DNA from: Lunularia cruciata
Lineage: Eukaryota > Streptophyta > Marchantiopsida > Lunulariales > Lunulariaceae
DNA: 64,000 bases
Reading direction: 5' to 3'
NCBI GenBank assembly: GCA_948567375.1
Contig: OX419762.1
Location: 55,694,841-55,758,840, forward strand
How positions within the stretch are numbered: position 1 is the stretch's first letter; the number at the start of each line of letters is the position of its first letter. A program made the translations under genes and the position numbers. A model generated the notes under the pieces. That model was not told the DNA's origin. It ran no database searches and was given only the letters and a program-made list of their open reading frames with translations. Below are positions 4,101-62,400 of the stretch, one piece after another.

Positions 4101-4964
4101 GTCTCCTCACTGGCCTCTCTCTCCAACACCAATCTCCAATTTGACTTTGTCCATTGAGCCAGATTGCCTCTCTTTCCTTCATCCTTAGGTCCCTCCTCAC
4201 AATCACTCAAGGCTACTTCAGCCATGAACCTTGGAAAGCTCAAATTCCAGTTCCATGCCAGAAAAGTGATCCAAAGTCTACTTAGGATTTCAACCCAAGC
4301 TATCATATCTAAACTTTGAATCATTGGATTTTTGACTGCCAGCAAAGGACTCTTCTTCTCACCCTTCTTTGGCATTGTGTGATCTCTAGTGCATGGTAAT
4401 TGAAACATAATTCTACCGTCCGTTGGTCTTGAGATCCTAACTCCTTCACACTTTTTAAATATCAAACACTCAGCCGGCTTCTCTACAAGCACTCCTTTGG
4501 GTCAACTAATCAATGGCTTAGGATACTTGTGGGACATTTCAAAATCCCCTCAACAAAGTCCCAATTTTATAGTTCCTCATTGATCAGGCATTCCTCCGTC
4601 GCTCATCATTGAAATGCACCATTTTGCATGATGTCCTCTTGGCATTATATAGGTTTAGTGATTTGTGCCTTGTCTGTTGTTTCTTTGTCTGTACTGTCTT
4701 GATTCATCCCTCTGCAGGCAAGTTGTTATGCCATCTTCACCTTAGGTTGATCACCTTGAGATGAAGTCCCCTTCCTTTGGGTCTCTCTTGGCCGGTTTTG
4801 ACCCGGGTACTTTGCTTTGGACTCAAATTCACGTTACTTCGGGTTTCAACCCAAAGTCACCATTTGTCTTCTTCAATGCCGTTTGGGTTCAATACAAATT
4901 TGTCTACACACTTCTTCTTCAAAATTGCACAGAAACTTAAAAAACAAAAAATGTGAGTACCACA
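1136..4964 (-). mobile_element. Long ORF-bearing LTR (solo LTR fossil), older sublineage
   Basis: Fossil LTR of the window's main repeat family, about 3.8 kb, read on the minus strand. Its sense start is the GTGGTACTCACA-like end at 4964 and its sense end is the GGTTGTCATA-like end at 1136. Parts in sense order: a short leader, a coding region (about 4490 to 2150) with the conserved block (NGYKVDTYQDPI, then a VVFFH motif, near 3890-4090) and a coiled-coil tail, and a non-coding 3' portion (about 2100 to 1136). No primer-site sequence follows, so it is probably a solo LTR. No clean target duplication was found, although GAGGA lies near both edges. It is broken by many changes and looks older than the copies at 52-58 kb. 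Its closest relative in the window is 17542-19834. Confidence 0.75.
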
Positions 4965-7991: not shown

Positions 7992-7999
7992 CCTCTGAA

Positions 8000-13790: not shown

Positions 13791-14240
13791 TCTTTGAACC
13801 ACAATTTATATTGATGCCAGTCCACTACAACTCATGCACCATACAACCATGTCTACCAATCATTAATGAGTAACCTGTTTTGATCATTGGCCAAAGTACA
13901 ATTTAATTTAATCTAAAGGGTACTCCTTTGATGATGGTTATTATATTTGTTTTTATGGAAATTTACCCATAAAAAATATGCAAAGGGCTAAAACACACAC
14001 TTATATAGATAAAAAAAACAGTTTTCTATTCAATATAGAAAAAAGATTGGACATTATTCTGGTTTATCTTAATTTTTGTGATAATAGTCCCAAAGGTTGG
14101 CATCTTGGTTGATCTACAAACTATGAAATTATGGTGTAGGTTTGAATGTATCATATCCCAACCTGTGTGCAGTATCCTCAATCATCACATTGACACCAGT
14201 ACTTGAATCAATGAGTATGGATGTAATTATACATCAAGAA
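13775..14240 (-). mobile_element. Ty3/gypsy protease-region fragment
   Basis: Matches the minus-strand gypsy pol segment at about 45800-46130, including the phrase around acttgaatcaatgagta. It is a fossil fragment of the same element family as 45355-50589. It carries about 165 bp of extra sequence inside, near 13930-14095, relative to that copy. Confidence 0.65.
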
Positions 14241-15029: not shown

Positions 15030-16331
15030 TCAATAACTTCTAAGGACCTGTACTACCTCTCTTGGGACATCTTTTTCCTCATTCACTTCTTCTTTTGACT
15101 TGTTCACATCTTCATCTTCCTCTAATTTTGTCTTGGAAGCCTTCTCAATCCCCTCCTTATCATCTTTTGATTCAATAGCCAATTCTTCTTCTTTTCTGGT
15201 TTCTTTTACCTTATCTTCTTTTGATTCCTTGATAATGGTCAACTTTTGTTTCTTGGCTATTGGTCTTGAAGGTAAGCATGATTGTTTAGTTTTCTTTCCT
15301 TTAGACCTACCAGGCATTTTGTATTCATCAATTCTTGCAAAAAATGCATCCCTATGTTGCACTTTTTCATCTCCTTTACACCTTTTGCATCCAACAAGAA
15401 GTAGGTGCTTGAGTAGTAGTGACCAAGAAACATGCACTTCTCCTCATTAGTTAGTAAAGTTCATGCCAATGTGAAAGTGAATCCACATGGCATTACATAA
15501 TAGAGTCTAGGTACTTTGAAGGTAGTGAATATTTAGGTGGTGTGCCAAGCAAAGATCTTTGCCCAATTGATGGTAGTCCTTGAGAAGACATGTTTGAAGA
15601 AGGCTTCTCTAGCATTCAAAAGGTAATTTGTTATTTTGGGTTTAAAGATTTTCATCAAGGCCTTGACAAGAGCTTTATATGCAAGATCTATGTAGTTTTG
15701 TACAATGCAATAGTTCTTCTTGGCAATGCCAAATGGGTCAATCTGGTCATGCATGGATTGGCTCAAAGTCCCAAGTTGGTCTCCATCATAATGCCATCTT
15801 TGGATCTAGTGTCTCCTCTTAGCTATTTTCGCCAATGTCTCTTTGTCCACAACCATGAATTAGCTTGCAATCAACTTTGCAACAAGCACTCCATCCCTTG
15901 ATATTGATCTCTATGGCTCCCAAAATGTAGTCCTAATTCTAGAGAAGGAAGAGCAGATTGAAATTTTATATAATGCTCTTGGTGCTTCCATATCCCAATG
16001 ATTGATGAAGGAGGTGGAGAGAACCCTTCTTCTAAATGTTCTCTTGCACCATCTTTGCTATAGCTAGCATTTCTCAGCACTCACTCAATTTTGCTCATTC
16101 CCAAAGATATGTGCAGTGCTTACTCAAGAACCTACTCTCTTTCTTTGGCCTCTTAAATCCTTCAACTATTATTGAAACCGGAAGTTCTTTGAGTGCCATG
16201 TCTTGAACCCATAGCCTTCAAACTACCTCATTCAATAGAGCCCTTAAGACTTATGACAACCAATACATTTGGTTTCCTAACCCATAGCCATTCTTAATTT
16301 GTAGTCAAACATTGTCATGTAATTTGAACAT
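15030..16331 (-). mobile_element. Diverged fragment of the VFFHQMFA coding family
   Basis: Minus-strand fossil. At 15766-15533 the frame contains EAFFKHVFSRTTINWAK, which lines up with the VFFHQMFA block of the long LTRs. At 15437-15030 there is a Lys/Glu-rich region with nuclear-signal-like basic clusters (RSKGKKTK) that corresponds to the acidic linker. The order matches the family. No LTR ends are attributable. It is broken and old. Confidence 0.55.
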
Positions 16332-17541
16332 TGTGACAACCCAACAAGTCTCACTTTTGCAGTAATTGATGAGTAATTGTTTGTTCCCACAAAGATATTG
16401 GTCAAAAATGGTCATACAAAGTAAAGAGTAACAATGTAGCTCTTCTTGATTTCATCTTGAGTCTCTTGGGTAGAAACCACATCTAGAAGAGAGTAACAAG
16501 CACTCAATCATAGTCTTGTCATAATTATAAGTCACCCAAATCACAATTCTTTGGATCCTCTCCAAATTGATACTAATTATGATGATTAAATTGCTTTGAA
16601 GAAGGCTACTTCACCACAAAGTGACTTCACCTTGGAATTGCATTACATCCCTCCATTGAAGGTTCAACTTCCTCAAGCAAAATGTCTTTGCATCAATCTT
16701 GTGCCTACAATCACAAATATCAATTACTACTAACACTATAGTTCTCACATATCCATAAAGGCATTTTTGTGATTGCTATCCACTTAGGATCAAATACAAA
16801 AAATGGAAATCAGAGCTGTAGAATCCAACATCTAACACACTCTGAATTGGATTCAAACTTCTCTTTACATGCACAAACACACACACACATAGGATTGAAA
16901 CTTGAAATTAAGCTAAACAATGAGCATTGAATGTCAACACTTTGCTTTACTTAACTTCAAAACTTAATACAAAATACAATGCATTGCAAATGACTGATTT
17001 AAATAGGTACAGTACTCAATAGTTAGAAAACTATCTAAACCACTTCAATTACTTCCTAGCAATCTTTAGATCTGAATTGTCTTATCCACATCTGCACCGC
17101 TTCAACTCTAAAAACTATTACTTACTAATCCAATCCAAGTACTACCTCAAGTTCAGCTCCTACTTCCAAATTACCAACAAGTGCCTCTTGCACTTTGGGT
17201 TCATCTACTACTTCTACATCTTCATCTACTTTGTCATATCTTCAATCTAGATTGAGATTGAAGCCATCAATATACTAATTATGTTATTTTTTGCTACTCT
17301 AATTTCTTTAGTGAACTCAGGTAATTCACCCATAGTCACCTCCACGCAAACTTCAACTACTTTGGGTCTATTCACTAAACTTTTATTTAATCTATTGCAG
17401 AGTTTATCTAATGTTTGTCTTAGATTAGATAAATCTAATCTAGAACAAACATTGTCTCCTACTTTAATCAAATTTTTATCTACTGTACCTCTTAGATGAA
17501 TTAAAAAATCTTTCAAGTTGATGTCCTTTGCCTTATGCTTA
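16332..17541 (-). mobile_element. Part of a long LTR, split by a second copy
   Basis: Starts on the plus strand with TGTGACAACC, the sense 3' end of the family, and runs through the non-coding 3' portion into the C-terminal coding part (17645-17247), which shows the family's DINLKDFLIHLRGTVDK-like segment. It stops abruptly where the next copy (17542-19834) begins, so that copy appears to have inserted into it. The remainder on the far side is not clearly identifiable. Broken, old fossil. Confidence 0.6.
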
Positions 17542-19834
17542 TGTGACAATCCAGCAAGTATCACTTTTGTGGTAATCCATAAATAAACTTCATTCCCACA
17601 AAGATACAGTTCAAAAATGGTCAAATACAAAGTAAATAGTAACAACTAGCTCTTCTTAGTTGCGTCTTTAATCTCTCAGGTAGAAACCACACCCAAAAGA
17701 AAATAACAAGCATTGATCACAAACTCGTCATAAATCAAAACACTCCTAATCACAATACTCCAAATCTTTGCAAAAAATCTTGATTATGATGATTTAGATT
17801 CTCCCCAAGAAGGCTACTCCACTACAAAACAACTTCACCTAAGAATTGTGTTCCACCTTTCCATTGAAGGCATGACTTCCTTGACCAAAATTCCTTTGCA
17901 TCAACCTCATCTTGCACTCACAAATGCAAAATACTACCAACACTACAATTCCTCTTAGATCTGAGAGGAATTTAATCTAAGAGGAACCTAAGAGGAATTA
18001 ATTTTCCCCACCTCTTCTACCAAACTTACATTGCTTAATTCTGCCCCTGCAATAGCAATACTCCTTCTCCCTCTTCTGCTTCACTGAACTTCCGCCTTTT
18101 ACTCAACCTTCAGAGTTTCTTCTATCTCCACAGTGGGTAACTCATGACATAGGTTTCCTCCTGCTTCCATTTGATCAATCGCAATATGGAACTCCTATCT
18201 TCTTTATCAGCATCATCTCCTCCTCATTGCTTAACTTCCACCCCCTCCCTTTTGCTTCCACTACTCAACTCTTCACTTTGTAGCGTCAACTCCGGTTCTT
18301 CTTCTTCTTCCACGTCCTTTGTTCTGTACTTGGCTTTGCCTTTTGACTCTTTTGCTCCCAATGACTCATCAAGCACTATGACTTCTTGCCTCAGGTTCAC
18401 CTTCCTCATTTTCTTTGGCTTAACTAGAAACAAACCCTCCTCCGAACAACTTTGCTTCCTCATCTTTGGGATGGTCATTGCTACTCTTAGATATTTCCAT
18501 GTGTGCGCCTAGTGCTCATCACTACTTTGGATCTATTGGATGTACTACTATTCCCCGTCATTTGTAGTCTTTTGTTAGTTTATATGAAAATGCAACACCA
18601 TCTTTCTTTGCTTAGACTCATTCATCAAGTTCAATCCAAAGTAGAAATAGGCAGCAAATGGCACCAAATAGTAAGGTGCATCTCACTCTCTCCAACACCA
18701 CACTATCTGCCTTGTTCTTTGATGAAAGCCCTTCACTCAATTTACTGGCGCACTTGCAAAAATGTGGTGGAAGAAGACCGCCTGATGCTTCATTACGTAA
18801 GTCATGCGATCGGGCTTGAAGAGTGCCATCATTGCCCAAATGATGCTTTTCCTAACTAGGTCCTGATAGGTATCTACCTTGTATCTGTTCTTTGTGCATG
18901 GCATTGTAAAAGAATTTTGGATCTCATCCATTTCCTCCGTAGACTCTCCTTTCCCAAGAAATGTTGCCCTAGTTTCCTCACCGACTTCTCTTCCCAATAC
19001 CAATCTCCAATCCGACTCTATCTATTGAGCCAGATTGCCTCTCTTTCCTTCATTCTTAGGTCCCTCCTCACAACCACTTGATGCTACTTTGGCCATGTAC
19101 CCTAGAAAACTCAAATTCTAATTCCATGCCAAAAAAGTGATCCAAAGTCTACTTAGGACTTCAATCTAAGCTTTCATATCTAATCATTGAATCATTGGAT
19201 TTCTTGCTACAAGCAAAGGACTCTTCTTCTCACCCTTCTTTGGTATTGTGCGATCTCTAGTGCATGGCAATTGAAAAATAATTCTAACATCTATTGGTCT
19301 TGAGATCCTAACTCCTTCAGACTTGTTAAACATTAAACACTCGACCGGCTTCTCTACAAGCACTCCTTTGGGTTGACTACTCAATTGCTTAGTATACTTG
19401 TGGGACATTTAAAAATCCCCTTGACAAAGTCTTGATTTTATAGTTCCTCATTGATAAGCCATTCTTCTGTTGCTCATCACTGAAATGTACCCTTTCTGCA
19501 TGACTTCCTTCTTGTGATATCCAAGTTTGTGGTTTGTACCTTGTCCGCCATTTCTCTGCCTATACTTTCTTGATTCACCCCTCCAAGAGAAGTTGTTACA
19601 CCATCTTTGCATTGGGTTGATCACCCCAAGATGAAGTCCCCTTACTTTGGGTTTCTTTTGGCCGGTTTTGATCCAAGTACTTTGCTTCTAACTCGGAGTC
19701 ACGTTACTTTGGGTTTCAAGCCAAAGCCAAAGTCTTCTCCTTACAATGTCATTTGGGTTCAATACAACTTTGTCTATACACTTCTTCTTCAAAATTGCAA
19801 AGAAACAAAAAAAACAAAAAATGTAAGTACCACA
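17542..19834 (-). mobile_element. Shortened long-LTR copy nested in the previous one
   Basis: Bounded by TGTGACAATC at 17542 and a GTAAGTACCACA-type end at 19834, so both family ends are present. At 2.3 kb it is much shorter than the 3.7-3.8 kb full LTRs. The conserved block (NRYKVDTYQDLV, near 18830-18860) and the N-terminal part (about 19408-19184) are visible. It groups by motif with 1136-4964. No clean 5-bp target duplication could be read. It is a fossil with many breaks. Confidence 0.65.
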
Positions 19835-19835
19835 A

Positions 19836-28159: not shown

Positions 28160-30230
28160 AGACATCCTTGGTTGAAACCAAAGTATCATGTCCCCCAATG
28201 TCTCTCCTTTGGAAACTTATGCATTTGCTTCCTCAAGTAACAAACTCACTTGCTTGGTTATTGAAGCAACATGATTCCTCAAATCTTCTTCAACTGTAGT
28301 CAACATCTCATACAACTAAGTAATATTGGTGGTAAGTTGCTTCTAAAGTGTCACCAAGGAAATCATTGCTTTAATCTTAATCTATGCAGAATGTAATTTA
28401 GCACAAAGTTGGTTTTCCTCTTTACTTTGCTTGCATAGTTCATTGTCTTGATCTTTCTACTTCTATAGACTTGTCAACCACAATGCAATCATCTCATCTT
28501 TATTTTGGATCACTAAGGACTTCTGACCTAACTCTCTTCTTTTTTCTTCTATTGCTTGTTCTATCGACTTGATGCACATGGGATCTGCAATTCTTAGCAT
28601 TTGCAGCTGCTCAAACTCACTTTACATGCCATCCAACTTTCCTCTCAAGACTGACTCAATAGCATGTATTACCTTTACCAATGAAGTATAATTGACCACC
28701 CCCTAATAATCAATTTTAGACATTGTTAAGAGAGTGTGCAAGTAACTAAGTGGATACAAGGTACCCATGATGAACTTGAGACCATCTACAATATTCTCTC
28801 CACAAACAGCTTTGAAACACGTATCTGAGTAGCACTTTCAATCACATTGAGTACATGCACACTTGGAATAGACTTTGGCATCATCTCTTTATGAATTGTC
28901 AAAACACCCATTTGATTTGTTCTTCTTCCCATAATCCTCCTTTACCATAGTCTCAGCATCAACTAGGGGCTTGTTTACACAAGGTCAAGACTAAATGACC
29001 CCATCATCTTTATCCTCCTCTAAGTCTATCTTTGAACCCCAAGCCCATAATGTTTACTCATTCTCCTCTATTGTATTCTTGCCTTGGGAGCTTGTAATAG
29101 CTTTGTCTTCCCAAGAAAGATCAATGGGCTCTTTAGGTTGTTTCCTTGGTTGTTTGGCAATTTTGACTAAGGTTCTTTTACTCAAAGGTGACATGTTATG
29201 CTTCCTCTTCATAAATTCTCTTTCTATTTTGACAAACTATTTATCAACCCAAACCTCTCATCTCCTTCTTGGAGTTGCTCCATGAAGGCAAAATCATCAA
29301 GATCCCCCTAAAGAATTTCATTTGAGTACAAATGACTAGAAAACTTCTATCTTTCTACCCGTGACAAGTACATGTGCATAGCAGAAGGTATAATGTAATG
29401 AGGTCCATCATCCTCATCCAAGTCCCTTACCATATTTCTCACATAAGTATGATAGGTCTTGCCACACAAAATAACCTTTTAATAAATATTGCTCTTGTAA
29501 CACTAATGTAAGTGGTTCATTCTGGTTTAAACAGATGCATGAGTAAACTAACAATGTAGCATTCAATAGGATCTCTATACAATCCTACTCTATATCCAAT
29601 CCTTGATTGTTCTTCTACAAATTTGGACTTGATTTCATTTGTCTTGTCCTTTGACCCAAACTTATGATCAAACATCATTCCTCAAGGATCCCTAACTTCA
29701 GACCCCAACACCATGACCCGATCATGTAGGTCCCATGAATGCAGATTACCTTGTTGCTTTTGACTATCATCAATTCTACCATCAATCATCTCATTACCTA
29801 TAATTTGACTAAATTTGCTTGCCTGGCTTCCATCTCCCACTTGTCAATTTGGGGACTTCAATGTTCCATCCTATCAACTTATATCTATCTTCCTTCTTTG
29901 GCATTCTGGTGATAGAAATGACTCAACCCACCCGACACTATCACAAAAGTGCAAATGCTCTTGACAACCCATAAAGGAATTCACTAATGTTTCTACAGCT
30001 GATAGTTCCCTTGTAAAGTCCTCAACTTTCTTATAAGCCTTGTGGTTGGTCTTTAGTTAGTCCTTAGACTTCTCATGTGCAACGGCATGCAATTCTTATG
30101 ACTTGGCCAATATTAGAATTTTTTTGTGGCACTATTTAAATCCTGTCCAACATGTCATGCCAAGCTACTTTGTACTTATTGTCTCATGCCCTGTTAGTGA
30201 CCATACTTTTTATCAATCCTACATGTCACA
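28160..30230 (-). mobile_element. Strongly diverged copy of the VFFHQMFA coding family
   Basis: In the minus-strand reading near 29620-29440, IGYRVGLYRDPIE followed by TTYISVTRAIFIKRLF lines up with the long-LTR block NGYKVESYQDPIQ … TTYVNMQQAVFFHQMF. Downstream in sense come an acidic part and a coiled coil (EEDLRNHVASITKQVSLLLE near 28300-28220). The whole domain order is therefore kept in a copy without recognisable LTR ends. It is broken many times and is among the most diverged members here. Confidence 0.5.
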
Positions 30231-37300: not shown

Positions 37301-37309
37301 TTTTGGCAA

Positions 37310-39478: not shown

Positions 39479-39740
39479 GCTGTTTGTAAAGTTTAGAGCT
39501 ACCCTACCACTCCTTCTCTAGTGACAAGAAGCTAAGTATGGGCATTCATACTTTGGTTTCTCATTGTTCTCTCAATTCATAGTTAAGATATGCAAACACT
39601 TCAAACAATGATGAGATGTCTTACATAAGTGACACATATAAGTGATAATTATACATGGACCATTCATCCTCTTAGACAGTACAAAATAAAACCAAATGCT
39701 TAGCCATTCCAAATATAATATCTTTAGCTAGTAAATCAGC
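39479..39740 (+). repeat. Direct repeat, AT-shifted copy
   Basis: Partner of 37074-37300. Its tail (caaacaatgatgagatg … aataaaaccaaatgc) also matches arm sequence at 33690-33860. Relative to its partner many CG sites read TG or CA, as expected from decay of methylated cytosine. Confidence 0.55.
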
Positions 39741-42140: not shown

Positions 42141-42164
42141 CATCTCGGAATTTTCTTGGATGTT

Positions 42165-45350: not shown

Positions 45351-46506
45351 AATCTGGCGTTCTCCAAATTCTTGTGGAATACCCAGCATTTGATCAATAG
45401 ACCAGGAAAATACATCCTAAAATTCTATAAACAGGGCAGTGTATCCTGCCAACTCCTCTAAAGTGACTGTCTTCAAAATTTTCAAATTTTTTCCTTCAGT
45501 CAAGATAACCTCTTGATAGTCATCGGGGTTGATGACTCCTTCAACGTGGCTTACTTGGCTAAATCCAAGTCAAGCTGCCATCAAACCCCCTTCCTCCAAG
45601 TTAGGTTCACCCGAGGCAAGGTCATATGGGTCTTTGTCTTCTACATCCACCTCGTAGCATTCCAAGTAATTGACTTGGACTTCGTTGTCGGAGTCTTCTA
45701 AGGACAAAGACAATGAGTCTTTAGAATCATCATTGTCTTTTGACAAACTTGTTTCCGCGAGATGGGGAACCTTTGTCCAACTCACCGTCACCAGCTTCTG
45801 GTCTTCGAACAAAATATCCTTGAACCGTAGCTTCTGTTGGTGCCAATCCACCACAACTTGAGCACTGTACAACTAGGGTCTGCCAATTAACAATGGATAA
45901 CCGGTTTTGGTCATTGGTCGCAACACAATGTAGTTCAACTTGAAGGGCACCCCTCCAATGATTATGGTAATGTTTGACAGCATGCCCAATGGCCATCTCC
46001 TGGTTTGGTCTGCAAATTTCAATACTTGGGGTGTTGGCTCAAACGTATGATACTCGAGTTGATTTGCAGTATCCTCAATCATGACATTCACACCAGAACT
46101 TGAATCAATGAGTATTGATGTGATCATGCACTCTACAATCTCTGCATCAACCTCGGGAGATCCCAAATCTTCTTGTTCAATCCGATTTATAGCGGGCAGG
46201 TCTTTCTTTGACATCGCCCTGACTTTCTTGAAGGCTAAGTTCAGCTGCATTTTGTACAGCTTATTGTCTTCCCACAATTGCTTAAATGTGATGTTTGCAT
46301 TTGTGGCTGCAAGTCCGCTACAATATCAAATTGGGGTACTCCTCCCAATTTCACCTTCTTCGCCTTCGGCTTTGGGTTCAAAGTCTCTCCATGTTGAAAT
46401 TTGACTTTGGGACGCTTCATGATGGTGATGGAGGTACTAGTGGTCTTGACTTGAGGTTCCTTGTGTTGGCTCACCTCGGCTTGGATCAGACACTTCACTT
46501 CAGATC

Positions 46507-47197: not shown

Positions 47198-49482
47198 GAT
47201 CAGATATCCACCGAAAACACTGGAGGCTTTGTCTTTGTCTCCTCCTCCAAGCTCAGTTCTCGGGTCTTGAGTATTGCTTCCTTGAGTTCTTTCTACAAGG
47301 CTTCAGCTTTAGCTTTTGCAAGGATCTTTTCCTCCTTGGCAGAAAGGATTGCCTTTGGGTGCAGCCTCTTTGCCTTTCTAGAAGACGATAAGGTCGTACT
47401 CGGTTCTTTGGGATCACGCTTCTTCTTACTTGTGCGTGTCTCAACCTTCAAATTTCAAGTTCTGGCCATTCTCCTTTCAAGGCCGGGCTTCCTTCTTGGG
47501 GTCTCTCCTCCTCAAGTGTTATGCAATTTATAGTTGTATCACCCTTCGCCTAAAGCACCGCACGCTCAGCTGGGGTCTGTACATACTTTACATGCGGCTT
47601 TGGGTTTGGTGGGTGAGGGCATTGGTTGCTTGTATGACCCGATCCTTTGCAATTTCCACATAGGAGAACATACCCATTTTGCCTTCTTGGCTCAGGACAG
47701 TTTGGAGACCAATGTCCCATTGAGCCACAATTATAACATGCCTTGGGTGCAACATTCTGAGGTTGATTTTGGTTGCTCACCGGTAGTCTTCATGGAGGAG
47801 CATTGGGGTTATACTCCCTTGGTCCGTATTGAGGCTGTACCTCTTGAGTTTGGTACACAGCCTCCTCTTCCTCTTCCTCTTCCTGGTTCCATCCCATAAC
47901 CCAATCAATTCAATGCACCAAGAATGCATTGCAAGTATTGCATTCCGTGTTTGCATGGCCTGACTTGCCACACGTGGTGTACCATACATTAGATCTGCCA
48001 AATGATGGGGGCTTCTTTTGGTCCTTTGCCTCAATCATTTGGATCTTAAAATCCAAAAACTCCATGATAAGGGCTTGGTATCAGCCTTATGTACACTCTT
48101 TGCTGAGGGAGTCACTTGTTTCCTACCCCCAAGTCTTTGTACTTGTCCTGGCTTTGATTCTCCTTTGGATTCCAAAGAAGAGTTTGAAGACGTGTAGGAT
48201 TCCTCCAAAGAGGGGGATGTATTGCAAGAAGCTCTCCTTCTGGGCTTCTTGCCTTTCTTCTTTTGGTTTCTTTGATTACCGGTAGAGTGAGAGTGAGTTG
48301 CCTCATAGCGGGCAACATGTTTGAGTTCTTTGTCTAGAGAAGTTACATTCCTCTCCTTGGCAAAGATCCAAATCTTTGGTGAGAGTCCTCCCAGGAACCA
48401 AGTGATGGCTTGGGCATCAGAGTAACCCACCACACCCGATTGCTTCATGACTTGGTTCAAGAGTGCCATGAACAACTCAAAGTAGTCTCTCAACTTCTCC
48501 TTCTTGCCTCTGTCTAGATCATTGAGTGCCACAAAGACACTCGTATTGTAATCAACTTCCTGGAATTGTTCTAGGAAATTGTTTCTCAAGTCTGCTCATT
48601 CCGCCAGTACAAACCCCTTCTAGGTTACATAGGTGTACCAACTCTGAGCTTTCTTTTGCAGCATAGTTGGGAAAATGCCCAGTCAATCCGCCAAGTCATG
48701 TTCCTTGTTAGCAAAGAAGATGACTTCAAATTCTTTGATGAATTCATCAGGGTCTTTGTCTTGTTCTGTCTCCTTGTACTTCTGATAGGCATGTCGGGTG
48801 ACAAGTAATGAAGTAATTGTTTGACTTGATGGGATTGGCTGGGGTAAGTTTGAACTTGATGGAACCAAGGAGCTGGCTGGTATTGACGCCATGTTGACAA
48901 CCTAGGGGTTCCAATTGGTCAAGTTCAAAGTTGGGTCTTCTTTGACAATTTCTTTTTTGAGGGTGTTGACTTCAACTCGAGTGGAAAAATCAAGCTCAAC
49001 ACCTTTGGAGTGTTCTTCAAAATTCCTTTGAGAGAATCGAGGAATCATTTGTAGAAGGTGTTGACATTCTTCTTCCGTTAGTGTCTATGCTGTCTTTTCT
49101 TGAACAAATTCTTTAGAGATGCGACTTTCTTTACAGCTCTAAGGGAAGTCGGTGTACTGGGCCGTAATGAATATGTCTGGCCACTTGAGTCTTTCTTCTT
49201 CTTGGAAGATGGGGATGCAAAGTAGCCTTGCCAACCGCCTTTGTGTTTCTTTTGGTCAAGTTCTTGCAGGGCTTCTTGCACTTCATGAAGAAGTTGAAAG
49301 TCCAACACCTCTCATTTGGTTTTGTCAAAATTAGATTGGATCTTCAGGTGTTTGTCTTCTTCATGATGCAACGTTTGTCTTTGAACTCTCTCTTCCCGTC
49401 ATTCTCTCAATGCAGACATTCATATTGCTTTGACACCCAATTTTGAAATTGGCTTTGTATTCTTCCACTTCCAAGATTTGTA

Positions 49483-49507: not shown

Positions 49508-50589
49508 TGTGACAACCTGGCAAATATCACTTTTGCGGTAATTAGGTAAGTAAAGTTCATTCCCATAGAGATACTAGTCAGAAATGTCCAAATACAAACT
49601 CAAATAGTAACAATATTTAGTTTTTCTTGGTTGTATCTTTAATCTCTCAAGTAGAAACCACACCTAGAAGAGAGTAACAAGCACTGACTTGCAACCTTGT
49701 CACAAATTAACAATTCTTAATCACAACTCCATCAAATATTTCCAAACATCTTGATTGTGATGATTCAAGCTCTCCCAAAAACAACACTTCACTGCAAAAC
49801 AACTTCACCTCAGAATTGTGTTCCATCCTTCCATTGAAGGCACAACTTCCTTGATTGAAATTGCTTCACATCAACATTGTGTTGCACTCACAAATGCAAA
49901 ATACTTACAACACTACAATTCCTCTCATATCTATCAAGGCATTACTTGTATTGCACTTCACTCAGTATCAAACACACAAAATAAAGATCAAGGCTATGGA
50001 ATCCAACATCCAACAAACACATTGACTTGCACTTCAAATTTCTCCACACACTCACAAACACAAACACAAACACAGAGTTGATACTCAGAATCAAGCTCAA
50101 GCAACGAGCACTACTTGACAGCACTTTGCTTTATCTATTCTCAGAAGTAATGAGCACTGAACAAAATTTTCCTGTGAATGCCACTCTTAAATAGTGAAGC
50201 AAACGATAATTCTAACAACTATACCATTTCCTAACAACTCTTCTAACTTGAAGATCCAAAATGAAAATGCACCTCTTCATATTTGCATTCATATCTTCAT
50301 ATGCACCACCATTTTTGAACGGTTCCTTCTTGAATGTCTTGCCTCAAAGGAAAGTTGTTACATTGTCCTCACCTTGGGTTGAGCACTCCCAAAACAAAGA
50401 CTCCTTACTTTGGGTTGTATGCTAATAGGGCAATTCCAAGTACCTCAACTTTTAACACAAAGTCACTTTACCTTGGGTTACACCCTGTGGACACTTTTCT
50501 TTGCCTTCTTCTGCCATACAGGCACAATTCAACTTCCCTGTACACTTCTTCTACAAAATTGAGAAAAAAGCAAAAATGTGGGTACCACA
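49508..50589 (-). mobile_element. Short-form 5' LTR without the coding region
   Basis: 1,082 bp. Its ends are those of the ORF-bearing LTRs (sense TGTGGTACCC … GGTTGTCACA) and its non-coding 3' portion matches theirs closely (compare 54188-54960). The long coding region is not there. It is followed in sense by the primer-site-like sequence and gag, which identifies the superfamily of the whole LTR family. Confidence 0.75.
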
Positions 50590-52137
50590 TAACCCCTCAC
50601 TATCTTTCTTTCTCTTTTCTTTTCTCTCACTCTATAACTAATAGAGTATGTACATGACTAATACCATTTGAGAGTTATCCACCCTAAATAACACAAAAGG
50701 CTCAGGTTGCTCCAAGATTTCTATAGCAACATCAAATCCTAAAGTGCATATTAATCAAATCCTCATGGATAATTTATCTATAAGTTGAAAGATTATCTCC
50801 ATCACTAATCTTGAGAACTAACTGATGAAGGTGGTAGTATTTCTATAGTTGTACTAAGACTCTCTCTGAGATCCTTTACCAAAGTCTCCAAAATTACTTT
50901 TACTCTACTACACTCATGTCTTTTTGGAAGTCCTTCAACTCCACAAACCTCACACAACTCCTTAGTCTTAGATCTTCTCTCTCCTAATCTTGGTGAAGAG
51001 GGTCCAACATGCAAACCAAAGTCAAGTAATTCTCTCCTTTCCCATAATCTTTTGCTTTCAAAGGTCAATGGACATGAACTTGCCTTATGTCCCTTCTCTC
51101 CACATAGAAAGCACTTAGACTCACTCTTTCCTCCAAGTGGTGTAGGTTTTTGGATCCTCTCAAGACTCTCTTCAAATTCTGTTATAAACTTTATTTTCCT
51201 CAAACCCTTCAATCACTTCAAACCCTTGGGGAACCTTGCATAGTCTCAATTTCCACTCTTGATGACCATCCATATTCCCAAGATGAATCTAAACACTCAA
51301 ACATACTTTTTGTTGCTCTCACACTCCTCATGCATGAGATCTCAACTCTGCAAAATTCACCCTTCCTCACAATGTCACACAAAACATTATAGGGAATGTA
51401 CATTACAGTCCTTGAAATTTTTCACACTTGATCAAAACTCTAGAGTGTCTCTTCTTGTAAACTTTCAAATCTTTTCATTGAGACATTTGGCCTAGACACC
51501 TTTCTATTAAGTACTCATATTTCAGATTTGGTGTGAAAACCACCACTCTCACTATAAAAACTCATAACTTTATGTGAAAGAATGATCTCTCTCTTGTGTC
51601 ATCAAGTAGGATAAAATGCATTGAATTTTCTTGGAAATTTTCAGAAAAATCCACACAAAATTGAAGAAATGACAAACTCTGTACAATTTTCCATAGAGCA
51701 TGCAGTTCCAATAGCAATTTACCCTATCAACTTTCAAAAATTCTAGCTCATTGCGGATAGTAGCTCTCAAAATAATTTTAAGTGTACTAACTGAAAGATA
51801 ACTCAAGCTATATGTGTACAAATTTCAAGTCCAGATCTCAAAGTTGAGATTTTGCCCAAAATCACCTTAATCCCCAAAATCTACAATCCACCTCACACAA
51901 TCTCTCCAAATCCTCTCATGTGTACAAGATGTGATGTACAAAATCACCTCAAAGATATCATAATGAACTACAAGGTATAAAAATAGGTCCAAGTTCTCTA
52001 ACATAAGTTCAGCCCTCTCCTCTCCTAAAGAGCTCTCCAAGTGAGCTCTCATAGCCTCCTTCTGTCTAATATGGAATTGTATGTGGAACATTATCTTGCC
52101 TTCTAGAGAAGTTTTGGCAATGGAACCAAAAATGTGA
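50590..52137 (-). mobile_element. Ty3/gypsy-like leader and zinc-knuckle gag fragment
   Basis: The right edge (about 52137-52110, minus strand) reads TTTTTGGTTCCATTGCC, a primer-site-like sequence directly after the end of the LTR now at 59657-60330, from which it was separated by the insertion of 52138-59656. About 900 bases of leader follow, then a gag-like frame at 51212-50805 with one clear CCHC knuckle (CFLCGEKGHKASSC) and a second Cys/His cluster (CEVCGVEGLPKRHEC). The left end is cut by the short-form LTR at 50589. Broken fossil. Confidence 0.55.
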
Positions 52138-55100
52138 TGTGGTACCCACATTTTTTGTTTTTCTATGTTTATTAGTGTTTAAGAGAAGAAGTAAGCATTA
52201 GAAGCCAAATTGTAGACAAAGAATGGACGGAAGTAACTTCGGAGGACATCCAAAGAAGATGACATTGGATCCGATGATGGAGGTACTCGAAAAAAGGAGT
52301 ACGATGGAAAAAGTCCAAAGAGCACCGTCTTCGGGTCAGAAGGCATTAAAGATATGAAGACCATTTAACAACCTTGGTACGTGGCAAGAAAGTACATTCA
52401 AGAAATGGTGGAGGCAAAAGAAGCATGTCTTGACAGTAACCGGGATTTGCACGTAGAAGAGAGAAGGTCAAAATTGAAATTGACTGAAGAATGACTGCAA
52501 TTTGGGGTAACATAAGATTGCAACTGCGCAAGGACAAGTTGAATGTGCCAAGTAAATTTCCAATCCCTTCGAGTAGTCGTCCTGCAATAATGCATGTCTA
52601 GAAGCCCATCGAGAGTGAAATTTTCCAAAATCTCGAGGGAGTTAGAGTGTCTCATCCAGGAGAGGGTATCATCTTCCAGCATCGTAGAACAAGAGAACAG
52701 ATTATGGTGACGAAGGTGGCCAATGCGCTAGCGGTTTGAAGTTTTGCATTTCAAAGATTAGATGTTGTAGCTAGAATCAAAATCTTGACTAGACTTTGTA
52801 TTACTTTCTTAGCATGGAACTGGAATTCCAATTTCCCAAGGTGATGGCAGAGATAGCTGCCAATAATTGTGAGGAGGGTCCCGAGGTGGAAGGGAAGAGA
52901 GGAAATCCGGCTCGATGGACTGAGTCAGATTGGAGGTTAGTATTGGGGAGAGAAGCAGGAGAGCCAACGGGGATCACCTTCTATTAGAAGTGTGATGTTG
53001 CAGAAGAGACGGCGGAAATTCACAATTCGTTTTTTGCTCCAAGAACGACGAATGGATACAAGGTGGAGTCCTATTGGGATCTGATTTAGAGAAGCATTGT
53101 GGGGGCAATAATGGCCATGTTCAAGCCAGAACAAACCACATATGTGAACATGCAGCAAGCCGTTTTCTTCCACCAAATGTTTGCAAGAGTTCCGGTGAAT
53201 TGTGCAAAGTGCTTCCATCACCAAACGAGGCAAATGGTGATCAATTGGCAAATAAGTTCTCCACCGCATTATTTTGCACCATTTGCAGCACACTTCTACT
53301 TTGGGTTGAACCTGCTGACAGAAGAGGAGCGTCGTTGTATGGTGTCTCATGTTCATCCTGACTTACGACGGGAAGCGGACGAGGAAGAGTGCTAGTATAT
53401 GCTACATCTACGAGCCAACAATGAGTATTTCTCAAAGACCAGACAGTGGAAGGTCAAAGAAATCACCAGTCCAAAGACAAAGAAACACGGCAAACCCGAA
53501 GACGTAAAGTCGCCTCCCACTCAAAGAAAGATTTGATGGCTGATTATGAAGAATACAAAGATGGTGAGAGAAGCATAATCGGGATCAAAGTCTGGGGAAG
53601 AAATTGAATCACAAGAGGAGGAATCCGAAGAAGAGGAGCTCACCTTAAAAAGTGAGGAGTCCAAAAGCGATAGTGAGGGAGAGCTAGAAGTTCAGCAATT
53701 GGTGGCGGTCAGTGAAGATTGTCAAGCGATGGTGGTGAACAAGCCAAGGTCCAAGAAGAAGGAGGAGTACCCAGCGGGGCTGAGTTCAAGAAGCAAAGAC
53801 AAAGAAAGTGCCAAACGATGTCTCTGAAGATACAAAGATCACAACTTTGGATGAAGGAGCTGATGACGGAGGTGAAGATTCAAGACAAAGACGGCGATGA
53901 AGAGGAAGAGAACTTTGGGGGGATATTGTATTTGACAAAAGTGGTCACACCATTGCTGGAGCTACTGAAGGAGCACCAGAAGGAAATTCCCCAAGATCGT
54001 AGGAAGGGGATGAATGAGTTGCAGGTGGTGAAGCATGTGTTGAGTGAAGTGAAGAGGTTGCAGGAACAACAAGTCCGAAGAAGTGAAGAAATGGAAGAAC
54101 TTTGGAGGGAGGAAGGCTTGAAGAAGAAGACTCTTACAATGTTACAAGAAAGCTGTGAGGTTAAAGAAAAAGAACTGCAGAGGCAAGTGTGACAACCTGA
54201 CAAATATCACTTTTGCGGTAATTGGGTAAGTAAAGTTTGTTCCCGTAGAGATACTATCCAGAATTGGTCAAATACGAAGTCAAAAGTCACAATTGCAGTT
54301 CTTCTTGATTTCTTCTTTAATCTCTCAAGTAGAAACTACACCCAGAATAGAGTAACAAGCTCATAATCTTGTCAACTTGTCACGAATACACACACATAAT
54401 CACAACATAGCAAATTCTGTCCAAACAACTCTTGATTGTGATGATTCAGATTCTCCCAAAGATGGCACTTCACTGCAAAGATCAATTTTGCCTCAAAATT
54501 ATGTTCCACCCCTCCACTGAAGGCACTACTTCCTCGATTGAAATTGCTTCACATCAACTTCGTGCTGCACTCACCAATGCAGAATACTACCAACACCACA
54601 ATTCCTCTCAGATCTGTCAAGGCATTGCTCCGATGCACTTCACTCAGGATCAAACACACAGAATGAAGATCAAGGCTGCAGATTCCAACATCCATAGACA
54701 CACTGACTTGCTCTTTGGAATTCTCCACACACTCACAACTACAAACACAAAATTGACAAATTGGAATTAAGCTTAAGCGACAAGTACTGAGAACAACACT
54801 TCACTTTATCTATCTTTAGAAATTTGAATACTGAACAACATTGTACTGCAAATGCTCCACTTAAATACTAAAGCAAATGGCAGACTTGCCTACCTGGGCA
54901 CCACTTCCTAACATCTCTTCCTACCTGCAGATTCTAAGTGACAATCTATCTCTTCATATCTACCTCTTCCTATCTCAAAATTGACATTTATCCTGATCCA
55001 ATGTCTACCTCATCATCGGCTTCCAAACCCGATGATCTTCCTACTATTTCTCCTTCTTTGGGTATGGCTAATTCCACCAAGTCCTTCATTACTTCTACTA

Positions 55101-58100
55101 CTTCTACACTACAATCTACAATTGAGCTCATGGGTAATCCATCTACATCCTTATCTCTTGACCCACTTTTCTCTAATGTGTCAATCATCAAGTCCGATGA
55201 CACTTGAATTTCTACTTTTGTGACATCGGGTTTCTTTTCCACTGTCACACTATTCCGAATCTTCTCTAATTTCAAATTGACTAAATCTAGTCTAAGACTA
55301 ACATTGTTCTCTACATCTAACATTTTCCTATCTACGTGTTCACTCAATCAAATCAATAAGGTGTTCATGTCCACATCCTTGGCCTTTCTCTTCCGAGTTT
55401 CTTGCACAAGTAACTTCAACCTATGTAGGCAAGCTTCCTCCAATCTCCCTTCAGCCTCCGTGCTTAAGATTGCTCTTAACTTCCTGCAACTTCCCCTACT
55501 GACTCCGATGCATATCCTCGAGAGCGCTCTACCTTCAACTCCTCACGATACATCTTCAACTCGTCTTTGTATTCTGCAGTGAGCATCTTCTTCTCCTCTG
55601 CATACAGCACGCTCTGCTGTTCCGCGCTCTTGACAAGTTCTTGCAATCGTTCTTCTTCTTCTTGCCTGGCTGCCAACTCTCTCTGCCATGCTTGATCTTT
55701 TGCTGCTGCACTTTTCTTTAAACTGTCCAACTCCTGCTCTATTACAATGGTCATCGCCTTCAAATGAATGTTCTCAATGCGCACATCACTCACTTCTTCC
55801 TTCATCTTGTTGAGCCACATCGCCTGTTCCGTGATTTCTCTGGCTCGCTTCTGCAGTTCCTTTGCAGCTCTCTTGTAACATCTTGAAAGTCTTCTTCTTC
55901 AAGACTTCCTCCCTCCAAAGTTCTTCAATTTCCTCATGTCTTCGGACTTGTTGCTCTTGCAACCCCTTCACTTCACTCAACAGATGCTTCACCACCTGCA
56001 ACTCATTCATCTCCTTCCTACAATCTTGGGGAATTACTCTTTGATGCTCCTTCAACAACTCCAGCAATGGTGTGACCACCTTCGTCAAATATGGTATCCT
56101 GCCAAAGTTTTCTTCCTCTTCATCACCATCTTTGTCTTGAGTCTTCACCTCCATCATTGGCTCCTTCATCCAAAGTTGTGATCTTTGTATCTTCATCGTT
56201 TTGGCACTTTCTTCATCTTGGCCTCTTGAACTCGGCCCTGCGGGATTCTCCTCTTTCTCTTTTGGTCTTGGCTTATTCACCACCATCGCCTGACAAGCCT
56301 CACTTACTGCCACCGATTGCTGGACCTCTGGCTCCCCATCGCTATCGCTCCCAAACTCCTCACTTTTTAATGTGAGCTCCTCTTCTTCCGATTCCTACTC
56401 TTGCAACTCAGTCTCTTCCCCAGACTCTGATCCCGATGATGCCTCTTTTACGATCTTCGCAGTCTTCAACATCAGCCGCCAAGTCTTCCTTTGCGTGGGA
56501 GGTGACTTTGCTTCTTTGGGTTTGCCATGTTTCTTCATCTTCGGACTGGTAATTTCTTTGCCTTCCATTGTCCGGTCTTCAAGAAATATTCATCGTTTGC
56601 TCAAAGATGCATCATATATTGGCACTCTTCCTCGTCTGCTTCTCGTCTTAAATCGGGATGCATGTGAGACACCATACGATGACGCTCTTCTTTGGTCAGC
56701 AAGTTCAGTCCAAAGTAGAAGTGGGCTGCAAACGGTGCAAAATAATGTGGTGGTGAGCCCGTTCGCCAATTAACCACCATCTGCCTCGTTTGGTGGTTAA
56801 AGCACTTTGCTCAATTCAATGGAGCTCCTGCAAACATCTGATGGAAGAAGACAGCTTGTTGCATGTTCACGTAGGTAGTTTGTTCAGTCTTGAACATGGC
56901 TATCATCACCCCCACAGTACTTCTTTGGATTGGATCCTGATAGGACTCCACCTTGTAGCCATTTGTAGTTCTTGGAGCAAAAAACGAATTGCAGATCTCC
57001 GCCGTCGCCTCTGCAGCATCACACTTCCGATAGAAGGTGATCTCCGTCGGTTCTCTTGCTTCTCTCCCCAATACTAACTTCCAATCTGACTCAGTCCATT
57101 GAGCCGGATTGCCTCTCTTCCCTTCCACCTCAAGACCCTCCTCACAATTACTGGTAGCAATCTCTGCCATCACTCCTGGGAAACTGAATTTCTAGTTCCA
57201 TGCTAAAAAGGTAATACGAAGTCTAATCAAGACTTTGATTCTAGCTACTACATCTACTCTTTGGATTGCAAAACCTCGCATTGCCAGTGCATTGGCCACC
57301 TTCTTTGCCATGATCTGTTCTCTTGTTCTATGATGTTGGAAGATGAGACCCTCTCTTGGACGAGACACTCTAACTCCCTCAGGATTTTGGAAAATCTCAC
57401 TCTCAATGGGCTTCCGGGCACACATTATTGCAGGACGACTACTCAAAGGAATTGGAAATTTACTCGGAACATTCAACTTTTCCCTGTGTAGTCGCCATGT
57501 TATATTTCCCTAAATTGCAATCATTCTTCAGTCAATTTCAACTTCAAATTGCTCTCTTCTGCGTGCAACTCCCGGTCATTGTCAAGACATGCTTCTTTTG
57601 CTCCCGCTGTTTCTTGAAATGTACTTTCTTGCCACGTACCAAGGTTGTTAAACGGTCTTTGTCTCTCCTGTGTCTTCCAACCCGAAGATGGTGATCTTTG
57701 GAATTTTTCCGGCATACTCCTCTTTTGAGTACCTCCATCATCAGATCCGATGTCATCTTCTTGGATTTCCTCCGAAGTTAGTTTTGTCCATTCTTCATTC
57801 GCAATTTGACTTTCAGTGCTTGCTTCTTCTCTTAAACACGACTAAACATAGAAAAAACAAAAAATGTGGGTACCACAGCAAGCCGGAGAATTAACGGAAC
57901 AAGCGATGTGGCTGAGCAAGATGAAGGAGGAAGTGAGTGATGTGCGCATTGAGAATGTTCATTTGAAGGCGATGACCATCGTAATGGAGCAAGAGTTGGA
58001 TAGCTTGAAGAAGAGTGCAGCGGGGAGGGATCAAGCATGGCAGAGGGAGTTAGCAGCCAGGCAAGAAGAAAAGGAACAATTACAAGAACTCATTAGAAGC

Positions 58101-59656
58101 GTAGAATTGCAGAGCACGTAGTATGCAGAAGGGAAGAAGATGCTTGCTGCGGAGTACAAAGACAAGTTGAAGATGTATTGTGAAGAATTGAAAGTAGAGC
58201 ACTCTTGAGGATATGCATCGGAATCAGTGGGAAAAGTTGCGGGGAAGTTGAGAGCACTTCTAAGCACGGAGGCTAAAGGGAGATTGGAAGAAGCACGCCT
58301 ACATGAGTTGAAGTTGCTTGTGCAAGAAACTCGGAAGAGAAAAGCCAAGGATGTGGACATGAACACATTGTTGATCCGATTGAGAGAGCGTGTAGATTGG
58401 AAGATGTTAGAAGTAGAGAATAATGTTAGTCTTAGATTAGATTTAGTCAATTTAGAGTTAGAGAAGATTCGGAATAGTGTAACAGTGGAGCAGAAACCCG
58501 ATGTTGCAGAAGTAGGAATTCAGGTGTCATCAGACTTGATATTTGACACATTAGAGAGGAGTGGGTCAGGAGATAGAGAGTTAGATAAGTCACTCCTTAG
58601 TGCAATTGTAGTTCCTAGTGTAGAAGTAGTAGAATTAGTGAAGGAATTGGTAGAATTAGCTATACCCGAAGAAGGAGAAATAGTAGGAAGATCATCGGGT
58701 TTGGAAGCCGATGATGAGGCAGACATCGGATCGGGATAAGTGTCAATTTTGAGATAGGAAGAGGCAGATATGAAGAGATGGATTGTCAGTTTGGATCTGC
58801 AGGTAGGAAGAGATGTTAGGAAGCGGTGCATAGGTAGGAAGGACTGCCATTTGCTTCAGTATTTAAGAGGAGCATTTGCAGTACAATATTGTTCAGTATT
58901 CATATTTCTGAAGATAGATAAAGCAAAGTGTTGTTCCCAGTGCTTGTCGCTTGAGCTTAATTCAGATTGTCAATTTTATGTTTGTGGTTGTGAGTGTGTG
59001 GAGAATTCCAAAGAGCAAGTCTGTGTGTTTGTGGATGTTGAATTCTGCAGCCTTGATCTTCATTCTATGTGTTTGATCCTGAGTGAAGTGCATCGGAGCA
59101 ATGCCTTGATAGATCTGAGAAGAATTGTAGTGTTGGTAGTATTCTGCATTTGTGAGTGCAACACAAAGTTGAAGTGAAGCAATTTTGATCAAGGAAGTTG
59201 TGCCTTCAGTGGAGGGGTGGAACAAAATTCTGAGGTAAAGTTATTTTGTAGTGAAGTGCCATCCTTGAGAGAATCTGAATCATCACAATCAAGAGTTGTT
59301 TGGACAGAATTTGTTATGTTGTGATTATGTGTGTATGAATTAGTGACAAGTTGTCAAGATTGAGTGCTTGTTACTCTCTTTTGGGTGTGGTTTCTACCCA
59401 AAAGACTAAGTGATTATGTGTGTATGTTTGTGACAAGTTTGTGATTATGTGTGTATGTTTGTGACAAGTTGTCAAGATTATAAGCTTGTTACTCTCTTCT
59501 GGGTGTAGTTTCTACCTAAGAGATTAAAAAAGAAACCAAGAAGAATTGTAGTTGTGACTTTTGACTTTGTATTTGACCAATTCTGAATCATATATCTGCG
59601 GGAACAAACTTTACTTACCCGATTTCTGGCAAAGTGATATTTGCCGGGTTGTCACA
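52138..59656 (+). mobile_element. Long ORF-bearing solo LTR, younger sublineage (interrupted)
   Basis: The outer copy has sense start TGTGGTACCCACA at 52138, sense end GGTTGTCACA at 59656, and a perfect 5-bp target duplication TGTGA (52133-52137 and 59657-59661). Without the nested copy it is about 3.8 kb. Parts in order: leader; conserved block (about 52815-53395, with NPARWTESDWRLVLGREAG and MQQAVFFHQMFA); acidic linker (about 53560-53800); coiled coil (about 53820-54187, continuing at 57878-58738); non-coding 3' part (about 58740-59656). No primer site follows, so it is a solo LTR. It holds a moderate number of breaks and looks rather young. A short local duplication of gtgattatgtgtgtatg occurs near 59320-59460. 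Confidence 0.85.
54188..57877 (-). mobile_element. Long ORF-bearing solo LTR nested in its own kind
   Basis: 3,690 bp in the opposite orientation to its host copy, with ends TGTGACAACC (54188) and GGTACCACA (57877) and a perfect target duplication GCAAG (54183-54187 and 57878-57882). Sense order from 57877: leader, conserved block (about 57476-56640, with NGYKVESYQDPIQ and MQQAVFFHQMFAG), acidic linker, coiled coil (about 56190-55480), C-terminal part with MLDVENNVSLRLDLVNL (about 55347-54988) and the non-coding 3' part. By eye it is very similar to the host copy, so both are from one recent burst. Solo LTR, a few breaks, among the best-preserved copies. Confidence 0.9.
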
Positions 59657-60330
59657 TGTGAGCTAGCCTATCTTTCACTCAAAATGAACCTTTGATGACT
59701 ATTATGGTAGTGTACCATGGACTCAAAAGGCAAGGAACCCCAACTCTATCATACTTGGCCAAGGCTAACACTCCAAGACTCAAGACATTGCTCACTAGAG
59801 AACTCAATGAGAGAGAGATAGTTGCAAATGAAAGGATGATGAGTACCTCTTCACCTCTTGTTTATATACTTGTGAAATAGCTACACCAAAGTTACTAATT
59901 ACTATAGTAACTCAAGTTACTAGGCTAAAAGTCAAGTAAAGTCAAAAAGCATAAAGGAATATCCATCCACATGAGCATGTGATCTTATCTTGACCCAACT
60001 ACTAAGTCAAGGATTCCTTCACATGGGCTATCCTTGGACTATAGAAGAATCCAAAACAAAAGGCTTCCGGGCCCAAGAGTTCTCAACTCTTTCCTCAAAG
60101 CCAAACACCTAAGAATAATATTAAGTCAACACACTAGAATCCAAAATAGTGGTGGTCATCATTCCGCTTCCTCTAAAGTAAGGTTCCCACTATCTTAGTT
60201 ATGACTAACTTTAGCTAATCATGACTAATGTAGAACAAGCCTTTATCTCTATATAAATAATATCTCTCAAGTATTTGTAATACTAAGCTATACATCAGAA
60301 TACCACACACATGCACAAATGGGTGTTACA
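59657..60330 (-). mobile_element. TGTAACACCC-family LTR, 5' LTR of a gypsy fossil
   Basis: Sense start TGTAACACCC at 60330 and sense end GGCTAGCTCACA at 59657. It is the same family as 46507-47197, with the same internal TATA-type promoter (tatataaa, about 60251). The 52138-59656 element inserted exactly at its 3' edge. Beyond that insertion the sequence resumes with a primer-site-like stretch (52137-52110), so this is likely the 5' LTR of the element whose gag fragment is at 50590-52137. Confidence 0.6.
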
Positions 60331-62400
60331 AGCCAAAGAAGGAAGACCGCAAGGGAGGCAGAGACAAGAAATCAACAATAGAAGACCTTGCAAGACCAAG
60401 TTCAGCCGGTAAGGAAGAAGGAAGCTCAAAAGAAATATTGCTAAAAGTACAAAGATTGAGACTTTGGGAGAAGGAGTAGGCGGAAGAGACAAAGTATGAA
60501 GATGGAGCCAAAGATGAAGAGAGCTTTGGAGGAGTAGAATATGTAATGCAGATTGTGACTACATTGTTGGAGCTATTGAAGGTGCAGCAGAAGGTAATCC
60601 CGCCAGATTGTATGAAGGTGAAGAATGAGTTGCAAGTGCTGAAGTACCTTCTAGACAAAGTGAAAGGATTGCGAGAAAGTGTAACCCGAAGAGAAGAAGA
60701 AGTTGAGGAGCTTTGGGTGGATACAAACTTGAAGAAGAAGATGTTAGAGAATTTGCAAGAGGCTTTTGAGGAGCGGGGAAGAGAGATGCAACGTCAAGCC
60801 AAAGAGTTGAAGGAGCAGATGATGTTGCTGGCAAAGATGAAAGAGGAGGTCAATGAAGCTCACATTGAGAGTATTCATGTGAAAGCGATGGCAACAATTA
60901 TGGAGCAGGAGTTAGAGGGCTTGAAGAAGAGTGCAACAAGGAAAGATCAAGCATGACAGAGAGAGTTGTCTATCTGACATCAAGAGGAAGAAAGACTAAG
61001 AGATTTGGTAAGAAGTGCTCAGCTATAGAGTTCTCAGTATGCAGAGGAGAAGAAAATGCTTGTTGTTGAGTATGAAGATGAGTTAAAGATATACTAAGAA
61101 GAGTTGAAGGCAAAACAAATCAGTAGGAGAAGTTGTGGGAAACTACAGGCCATGCTGAGCATAGAGGCTGAAGGAATTGAAAATTGATGGTGCAAGAAAC
61201 TCAGAAGAGGAGAGTTAAAGATGTAGATATGAACACTCTTCTGATTCATTTAAGGGAAAGAGTAGATAGAAAGATGTTGGAGGTAGGAGACAATTTAAGT
61301 CTCAAATTAGATTTAGTGGACTCATAGTTGGAGAGGGTTAGGAGTAGTGTGAAGGAAGAGAAGAAGTCCAAAGTAGCAGAAGTAGGAGTATAGGTGTCTT
61401 TGGAGTTGTACTCTAAGATATTAGAGTAGAGTAGGTGAGAAGATAAAGAGTTAGATAGATTACCCATGAGTGCAATTGTAATTGAGAGTGAACAAATGGT
61501 AGAGATAGTGAAGGAATTAGTAGAATTAGATAGACCCGAAGAAGGAGAAGTGATAGGAAGATCATTGGGTTTGGAAGCCAAAGAAGAAGTAGACATTGGA
61601 TCAGAGTAGTAACAATTTTGAGATATGAAGATGCAAATATGAAGAGGTACATTGTTCATTTCAGATCTGCAAGTTTGTAGAGTTGTGTAGAATGGTATAA
61701 TTGTTAGTAATTATCAATTGCCATACTATTTAAAGGAGGCATTTAGAATGTTATGTTGTTCAGTATTCATAATTTTTGAAGATAGATAAAGCAAAGTGTA
61801 GATTTTAGTGCTTGTTGCTTGAGCTTAATTTCAAATATCAATATTGCATGTGTGTTTGTGAGTATTTGCAGAATTCTTAAGTGCAAGTCAATGTGCATGT
61901 TGGATGTTGGATTCTGTAGTCTTGATCTTCATTTTGTAGCCTTGATCTTGAGTGGATTGCATCGGAGCAATGCCTTGATAGGTCTGAGAAGAATTGTAGT
62001 GTTGGTAGTATTCTGGATTTGTGAGTGCAATGCAATGTTGATGTGAAGCAATTTTGATTGAGGAGGTTGTACCTTCAGTGGAAGAGTGGAACAAAATTTT
62101 GAGGTAAAGTTATTTTGCAGTGAAGTGCCATCTTTGAGAGAATCTGAATCATCACAATCAAGATTTTTTTGGACAGAATTTGTTATGTTGTGATTATGAG
62201 TGTATGAATTAGTGACAAGTTGTCAAGATTGAGTGCTTGTTACTCTCTTTTGGGTGTGGTTTCTACTCAAGAGACTAAAGAAGAAATCAAGAAGAACCAC
62301 ATTTTTTACCATTTGTCTTTGTATTCTGACATTTCCGATCAATATCTTTGCGGGAATAGACTTTACTACCCAATTACCTGATATTTGATGGGTTGTCACA
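60331..62400 (+). mobile_element. 3' part of a third long ORF-bearing LTR
   Basis: Begins mid-coding next to the LTR at 60330, which appears to have inserted into it, and ends with the family's GGTTGTCACA at 62400. It contains the coiled-coil coding part (60546-60956, heptads such as EEEVEELWVDTNLKKKMLEN), a C-terminal region (about 61190-61610) and the non-coding 3' part (61620-62400). The N-terminal block is not in this piece. No primer site follows 62400. More decayed than 52138-59656. Confidence 0.75.

Follow-up and report, generated by a model that had tools for sequence, protein, structure and literature searches.

In a 64-kb stretch of DNA (hereinafter the window), the interval 52138-59656 consists of two copies of one repeat unit, copy B nested inside copy A, and both carry the remains of a long gene. 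The reading frame common to A and B, about 850 codons, evolved as protein, and as a relic of past selection the gene is real. The two units are probably solo long terminal repeats (LTRs) of a family of LTR retrotransposons, presumably Ty3/gypsy elements of a plant, with an accessory gene of this length in U3. A plant host would agree with how densely old repeats are nested here. LTRs are ordinarily regarded as non-coding. The terms "sense" and "U3" are used here relative to the orientation of the TG...CA ends and of a TATTTAA box. The earlier note on this DNA had described the interval as an LTR family whose LTR carries a long coding region, which is right overall, but the span holds two copies, one within the other.

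TG...CA-type ends, TGTGGTACCC...GGTTGTCACA, are found in A, B and a related unit, copy C, which has both ends without the coding cassette. Without B and one duplication, A is 3824 bp long, and its identity to B is 82-93% per 200-bp step (steps printed). Comparison with the window detected no direct repeat between the own ends of either A or B. Perfect 5-bp target-site duplications (TSDs) flank two of the five copies with both ends visible, namely A and B. Two other copies deviate at their ends: E terminates in GTCATA, and F2 begins with TGTGGTACTT. About 120 bp are locally duplicated in tandem near the 3' end of A (59331-59545). The insertion site of A is the first 5 bases of one copy (59657-60330) of another LTR-like repeat, TGTGAGC...GTGTTACA, which has a second copy at 46507-47197, with blocks 85-99% alike.

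The common frame begins some 350 bp in from the 5' end and closes some 120 bp short of the TATTTAA box; the likely start codon in A is ATG 52491, giving about 850 codons. Over 748 codons, the changes between A and B at codon positions 1, 2 and 3 number 88, 65 and 187 (p 7.9e-17). Transversions alone, on which deamination of methylated C has less effect, are biased in the same way (22, 11 and 35; p 0.0017). The Nei-Gojobori estimates for the same 748 codons are dN 0.089 and dS 0.575 (nonsynonymous and synonymous divergence), with a ratio of 0.15, which is approximate because transitions dominate and dS is overestimated. Codon-position bias also appears in six other comparisons, those with E (p 1.9e-8), F2 (7.8e-8), G (4.2e-7), D (1e-5), F1 (0.012) and H (0.009). 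The claim that the coding region is real and conserved is thus borne out.

Stop codons are scarce in this frame. In-frame stops number 6 in 749 codons of A (74 and 39 in the other frames), 3 in 771 of B (73 and 43), 11 in 405 of D (52 and 24), 15 in 551 of E (59 and 40) and 10 in 283 of F2 (23 and 21). The final stop falls at one aligned codon in all four of A, B, D and E, as TAA in the first two and as TAG in the others. Differences at position 2 between A and B (65 of 748, 9%) are about as frequent as differences in the 3' non-coding part (8-10%), which would follow if amino-acid changes mostly post-date insertion and arose during decay. Because the changes between A and B concentrate at silent positions, the constraint acted after the two copies came to share the LTR.

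In the encoded protein, a conserved N-terminal block is followed by a charged linker and a helical tail, the latter with partial heptad-like periodicity. Specifically, WTESDWRLVLGREA is present in A and replaced by WTESDWKLVLGREA in B, while VFFHQMFA is found in both, so the coding block given in the earlier note is there, as is its acidic linker in the form of the charged linker. The long coiled coil of that note stands in part. When hydrophobic periodicity of 3.45-3.65 residues was compared with 5000 shuffles, the observed value was equalled by 17 of 5000 at the end of the linker and by 187 of 5000 in the coiled-coil stretch cc1, but by 1222 of 5000 in the stretch cc2, which is not significant. 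None of five protein pieces passed the Pfam cut-off (best E 0.068), the presence in Pfam of the three eORF families of a published survey being unchecked. The block, searched as a single sequence and as a 9-row alignment against 5.8 billion proteins, gave no match at E<=0.01, which says little because the gag-like frame described below also matched nothing at E<=0.001. A profile search of the PDB gave a best E of 0.11, which is not credible, and AlphaFold2 gave no usable model of the N region plus block (mean predicted local distance difference test score 37.1).

Further copies were found within the window by nucleotide and translated comparison, and with a profile of the block built from A, B, E, F2 and G. 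The profile matches the divergent block H in two pieces (29762-29463, E 5.9e-19; 29604-29251, E 5.1e-7) and the divergent block I at E 3.6e-13. Altogether, seven loci in the 64 kb have the conserved N-terminal block, a count that leaves out three weaker profile matches (19831-19908 on the plus strand at E 0.007, the rest weaker). The cassette is present in A, B, D, E, F2 and G and, to judge from their divergent blocks, probably in H and I; it is absent from C. The right flank of F1 was considered as an internal region and rejected because divergent block I sits there.

These observations bear on the origin of the gene. If the coding region were a captured host gene fragment, its protein-like pattern would pre-date the capture and the copies would have drifted since; the absence of the cassette from C is what a gain predicts, and each copy looked at is broken. 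However, A and B share the surrounding LTR, yet the changes between them are mostly silent, and blocks H and I point to a family of long standing, so we consider such a capture unlikely.

The position of the frame fits the layout of an LTR. In five of the seven copies examined (A, B, C, D and F1), the distance from TATTTAA to the 3' end is 674-797 bp; in F2 the box region is lost. If the box is taken as the promoter, the frame would fill U3, and about 0.65-0.8 kb would be left for R and U5. No pair of units flanking an internal region was recognised within the window, and tRNA and Rfam scans of it gave no matches.

Copy C looks like an LTR of the same kind without the gene, and a cassette-less relative is a new fact. 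Its start aligns to positions 1-268 of E and F2 (64-67% identity; 59% to A, E-value 1.4e-4). After about 30 unaligned bases, it aligns to A, B, D and E through the 3' end at 77-79%, beginning 12 bases past the stop codon of A. Missing from C are the coding cassette and somewhat less than 100 bp preceding it. A single copy of this kind fits both ancestral absence and later loss of the cassette.

Downstream of C, on its strand, are a gag-like frame, two zinc knuckles that pass the Pfam cut-off, and a frame at 45876-46325 that we take to be protease-like from a motif recognised by eye. One copy of the other LTR-like repeat (46507-47197) sits between the zinc knuckles and the protease-like frame and was probably inserted into one element. 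A relic resembling the protease-like frame, with 62-79% identity over three pieces of 34-37 residues, lies immediately next to copy G, which bears the open reading frame (ORF), and on the same strand. The relic at G and the frames downstream of C are the only links found from the LTR family to retrotransposon genes. We lean towards C being the 5' LTR of the gag-like relic, which is unproven because no TGG lies within 30 bases after C and the only self-complementary match is of 9 bases.

The relic and the block of G join directly (13745-13749), a junction such as a deletion between an internal region and the gene in a 3' LTR would leave. Between C and A, the strand of C holds a separate zinc-knuckle frame (50805-51212, minus strand; zf-CCHC E 1.2e-4). 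Elsewhere, tblastx reveals a long duplicated segment in opposite orientation (4965-11500 and 30444-45500), which includes a proline-rich frame (7251-7965, minus strand, and 35605-36105, plus strand).

Table 1. Features of the LTR family and of the neighbouring retrotransposon-like frames (positions in the window)
Feature	Position	Strand	Remarks
Copy A, 5' part	52138..54187	+	5' end TGTGGTACCC
Copy A, 3' part	57883..59656	+	3' end GGTTGTCACA
TSD of A, left	52133..52137	.	TGTGA
TSD of A, right	59657..59661	.	TGTGA
Copy B	54188..57877	-	complete unit of 3690 bp, nested in A
TSD of B	54183..54187	.	GCAAG
TSD of B	57878..57882	.	GCAAG
Coding region of A, first part	52491..54187	+	likely start; broken by stops and frameshifts
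Coding region of A, last part	57883..58739	+	stop codon 58737-58739
Coding region of B	54988..57524	-	likely start; stop codon 54990-54988; broken
Conserved N-terminal block in A	52823..53461	+	
TATTTAA box of A	58860..58866	+	putative promoter
TATTTAA box of B	54861..54867	-	
Copy C	49508..50589	-	related LTR-like unit of 1082 bp, both ends, without coding cassette
Gag-like frame downstream of C	48038..48595	-	Retrotrans_gag E 6e-4, below cut-off
Two zinc knuckles	47553..47789	-	zf-CCHC E 5.5e-11, above cut-off
Frame taken as protease-like	45876..46325	-	motif recognised by eye; Pfam gave no protease match at E<=0.1
Relic resembling protease-like frame	13745..14233	-	abuts copy G
Copy D	60369..62400	+	5' part missing
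Copy E	1136..4964	-	both ends, co-linear, 3829 bp, no TSD
Copy F1	16332..17541	-	3' part
Copy F2	17542..19834	-	both ends, internal deletion, no TSD
Copy G	12085..13749	-	partial: block, linker, coiled-coil parts
Divergent block H	29251..29762	-	translated comparison and profile
Divergent block I	15413..15721	-	profile

Two other readings of the ORF-bearing units were weighed. In one, the ORF-bearing unit would be a non-autonomous passenger that uses the enzymes of a C-type element and carries the gene for its own benefit, consistent with the fact that ORF-bearing units with TSDs are seen only singly and that the LTR of the gag-bearing relic lacks the ORF. This is improbable: a lone LTR is without primer-binding site and polypurine tract, there is no sign here of single units moving, and the protease-like relic adjoins an ORF-bearing copy as well. 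Least probable of all is a reading of A and B as complete DNA transposons with TGTG...CACA termini and the conserved protein as their own transposase. They are indeed single co-linear units with a selected protein inside and no terminal direct repeats, but the termini have only TGTG/CACA in common, C has both ends without the protein and is followed by gag-like and CCHC frames, TATTTAA stands where a U3/R border needs a box in five of seven copies, and none of the five protein pieces passed the Pfam cut-off, which a transposase of a family unknown to Pfam could fail as well.

An LTR with an optional U3 gene, as in the case of sag of mouse mammary tumour virus (MMTV), an animal retrovirus whose sag superantigen has about 320 amino acids, is favoured, because C keeps the ends without the cassette and gag-like frames follow it. 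The reading of A and B as solo LTRs with a coding region, already proposed in the earlier note, is supported by the TG...CA ends, the TSDs, the position of the box, the relative C and the protein-level selection, but no full-length element with two ORF-bearing LTRs is seen in the window. That note had named two findings that would speak against it. For full-length elements with LTRs that never include the region, the related copy C does lack it, which goes half of the way; for a match to a transposase, none was obtained with the five protein pieces at the Pfam cut-off.

Several other points weigh against solo LTRs of a gene-bearing retrotransposon. No TSD is present at C, E and F2, three of the five copies with both ends visible, and E reads TATGTAA at the position of the box. 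Purines make up 80% of the last 20 bases upstream of C and of E, which would rather fit 3' LTRs, but the figure for A and H is 70% (F2, 55%; B, 30%). On the coding side, no copy inspected has an intact frame, transition bias raises the dS between A and B, and for D (p 0.087) and H (p 0.26) the transversions by themselves fall short of significance. On the side of the retrotransposon genes, the Retrotrans_gag match (E 6e-4) fails the cut-off, the protease-like frame is without a Pfam protease match at E<=0.1, and no reverse transcriptase or integrase was found among the eight ORFs scanned near C. The missing TGG after C, with the 9-base self-complementary match, belongs on the same side.

On the likely reading of A and B as solo LTRs of such a retrotransposon, the following course would apply. 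Genomic RNA would start just past the TATTTAA box of the 5' LTR, run through gag-pol and end in the 3' LTR. The gene would thus be last on the RNA, and its mRNA would arise by splicing or from an internal start, as for MMTV sag. Since reverse transcription copies U3 into both LTRs, the gene would be doubled in each cycle, and it would persist in each solo LTR. The protein most likely self-associates. Guided by selection and position, one may guess that the element uses it as an accessory factor, for instance to assemble particles, enter the nucleus or counter silencing. We give about even weight to the wider view that the large U3 gene was gained by this lineage as an old, exchangeable cassette, kept by selection over the divergence of the family, and a plant counterpart of sag for which solo LTRs are dispersed gene copies.

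If this is true, a long gene under selection within U3 doubles with every cycle and outlives the formation of solo LTRs, and annotation would take it for an unknown repeat or for a family of host genes. What an LTR gains from such a gene could then be tested by comparing related LTRs that have it with those that lack it.

Among known systems, lentiviral nef and foamy-virus bel/bet lie at the 3' end and extend into U3. The gene described here would likewise be a 3' gene that reaches U3, but theirs are only partly in the LTR and belong to animal viruses. Older papers on giant legume elements reportedly mention ORFs in or near LTRs. A literature search by titles and the starts of abstracts, with subscription journals mostly outside its range, returned MMTV-type cases and no plant LTR-borne gene, which is no proof of absence. 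The suggestion that the element is undescribed depends on a limited range of literature and on protein collections in which the neighbouring gag-like frame was missed too.

In plant LTR retrotransposons, additional ORFs (aORF, eORF) are described in the internal region, before or after gag-pol, in Athila, Ogre, Retand, Grande and SIRE (PMC7264820, PMC6317226), and LTRs of non-chromoviruses reach about 5 kb (PMC6317226). Like the gene described here, these accessory genes are mostly without clear relatives, often fast diverging and present in many copies; unlike it, they are internal, and the available portions of these sources mention none inside an LTR. Similarly, the available portions of the reports on Retand (PMC11963269) and Gymny (PMC2633040) describe no LTR-borne gene.

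The closest likeness is to MMTV-like betaretroviruses, for which the accessible part of one study places most of sag in U3 and gives old copies that are mostly solo LTRs (490 of 527 shortlisted contigs) with a dN/dS of 0.289 (PMC4667437). The present frame differs from sag in its length of about 850 codons, its seemingly plant host and its ORF-less LTR relative. In layout and history the two seem alike, with a gene mostly within U3, survival in solo LTRs and a dN/dS below 1, about 0.15 between A and B compared with 0.289.

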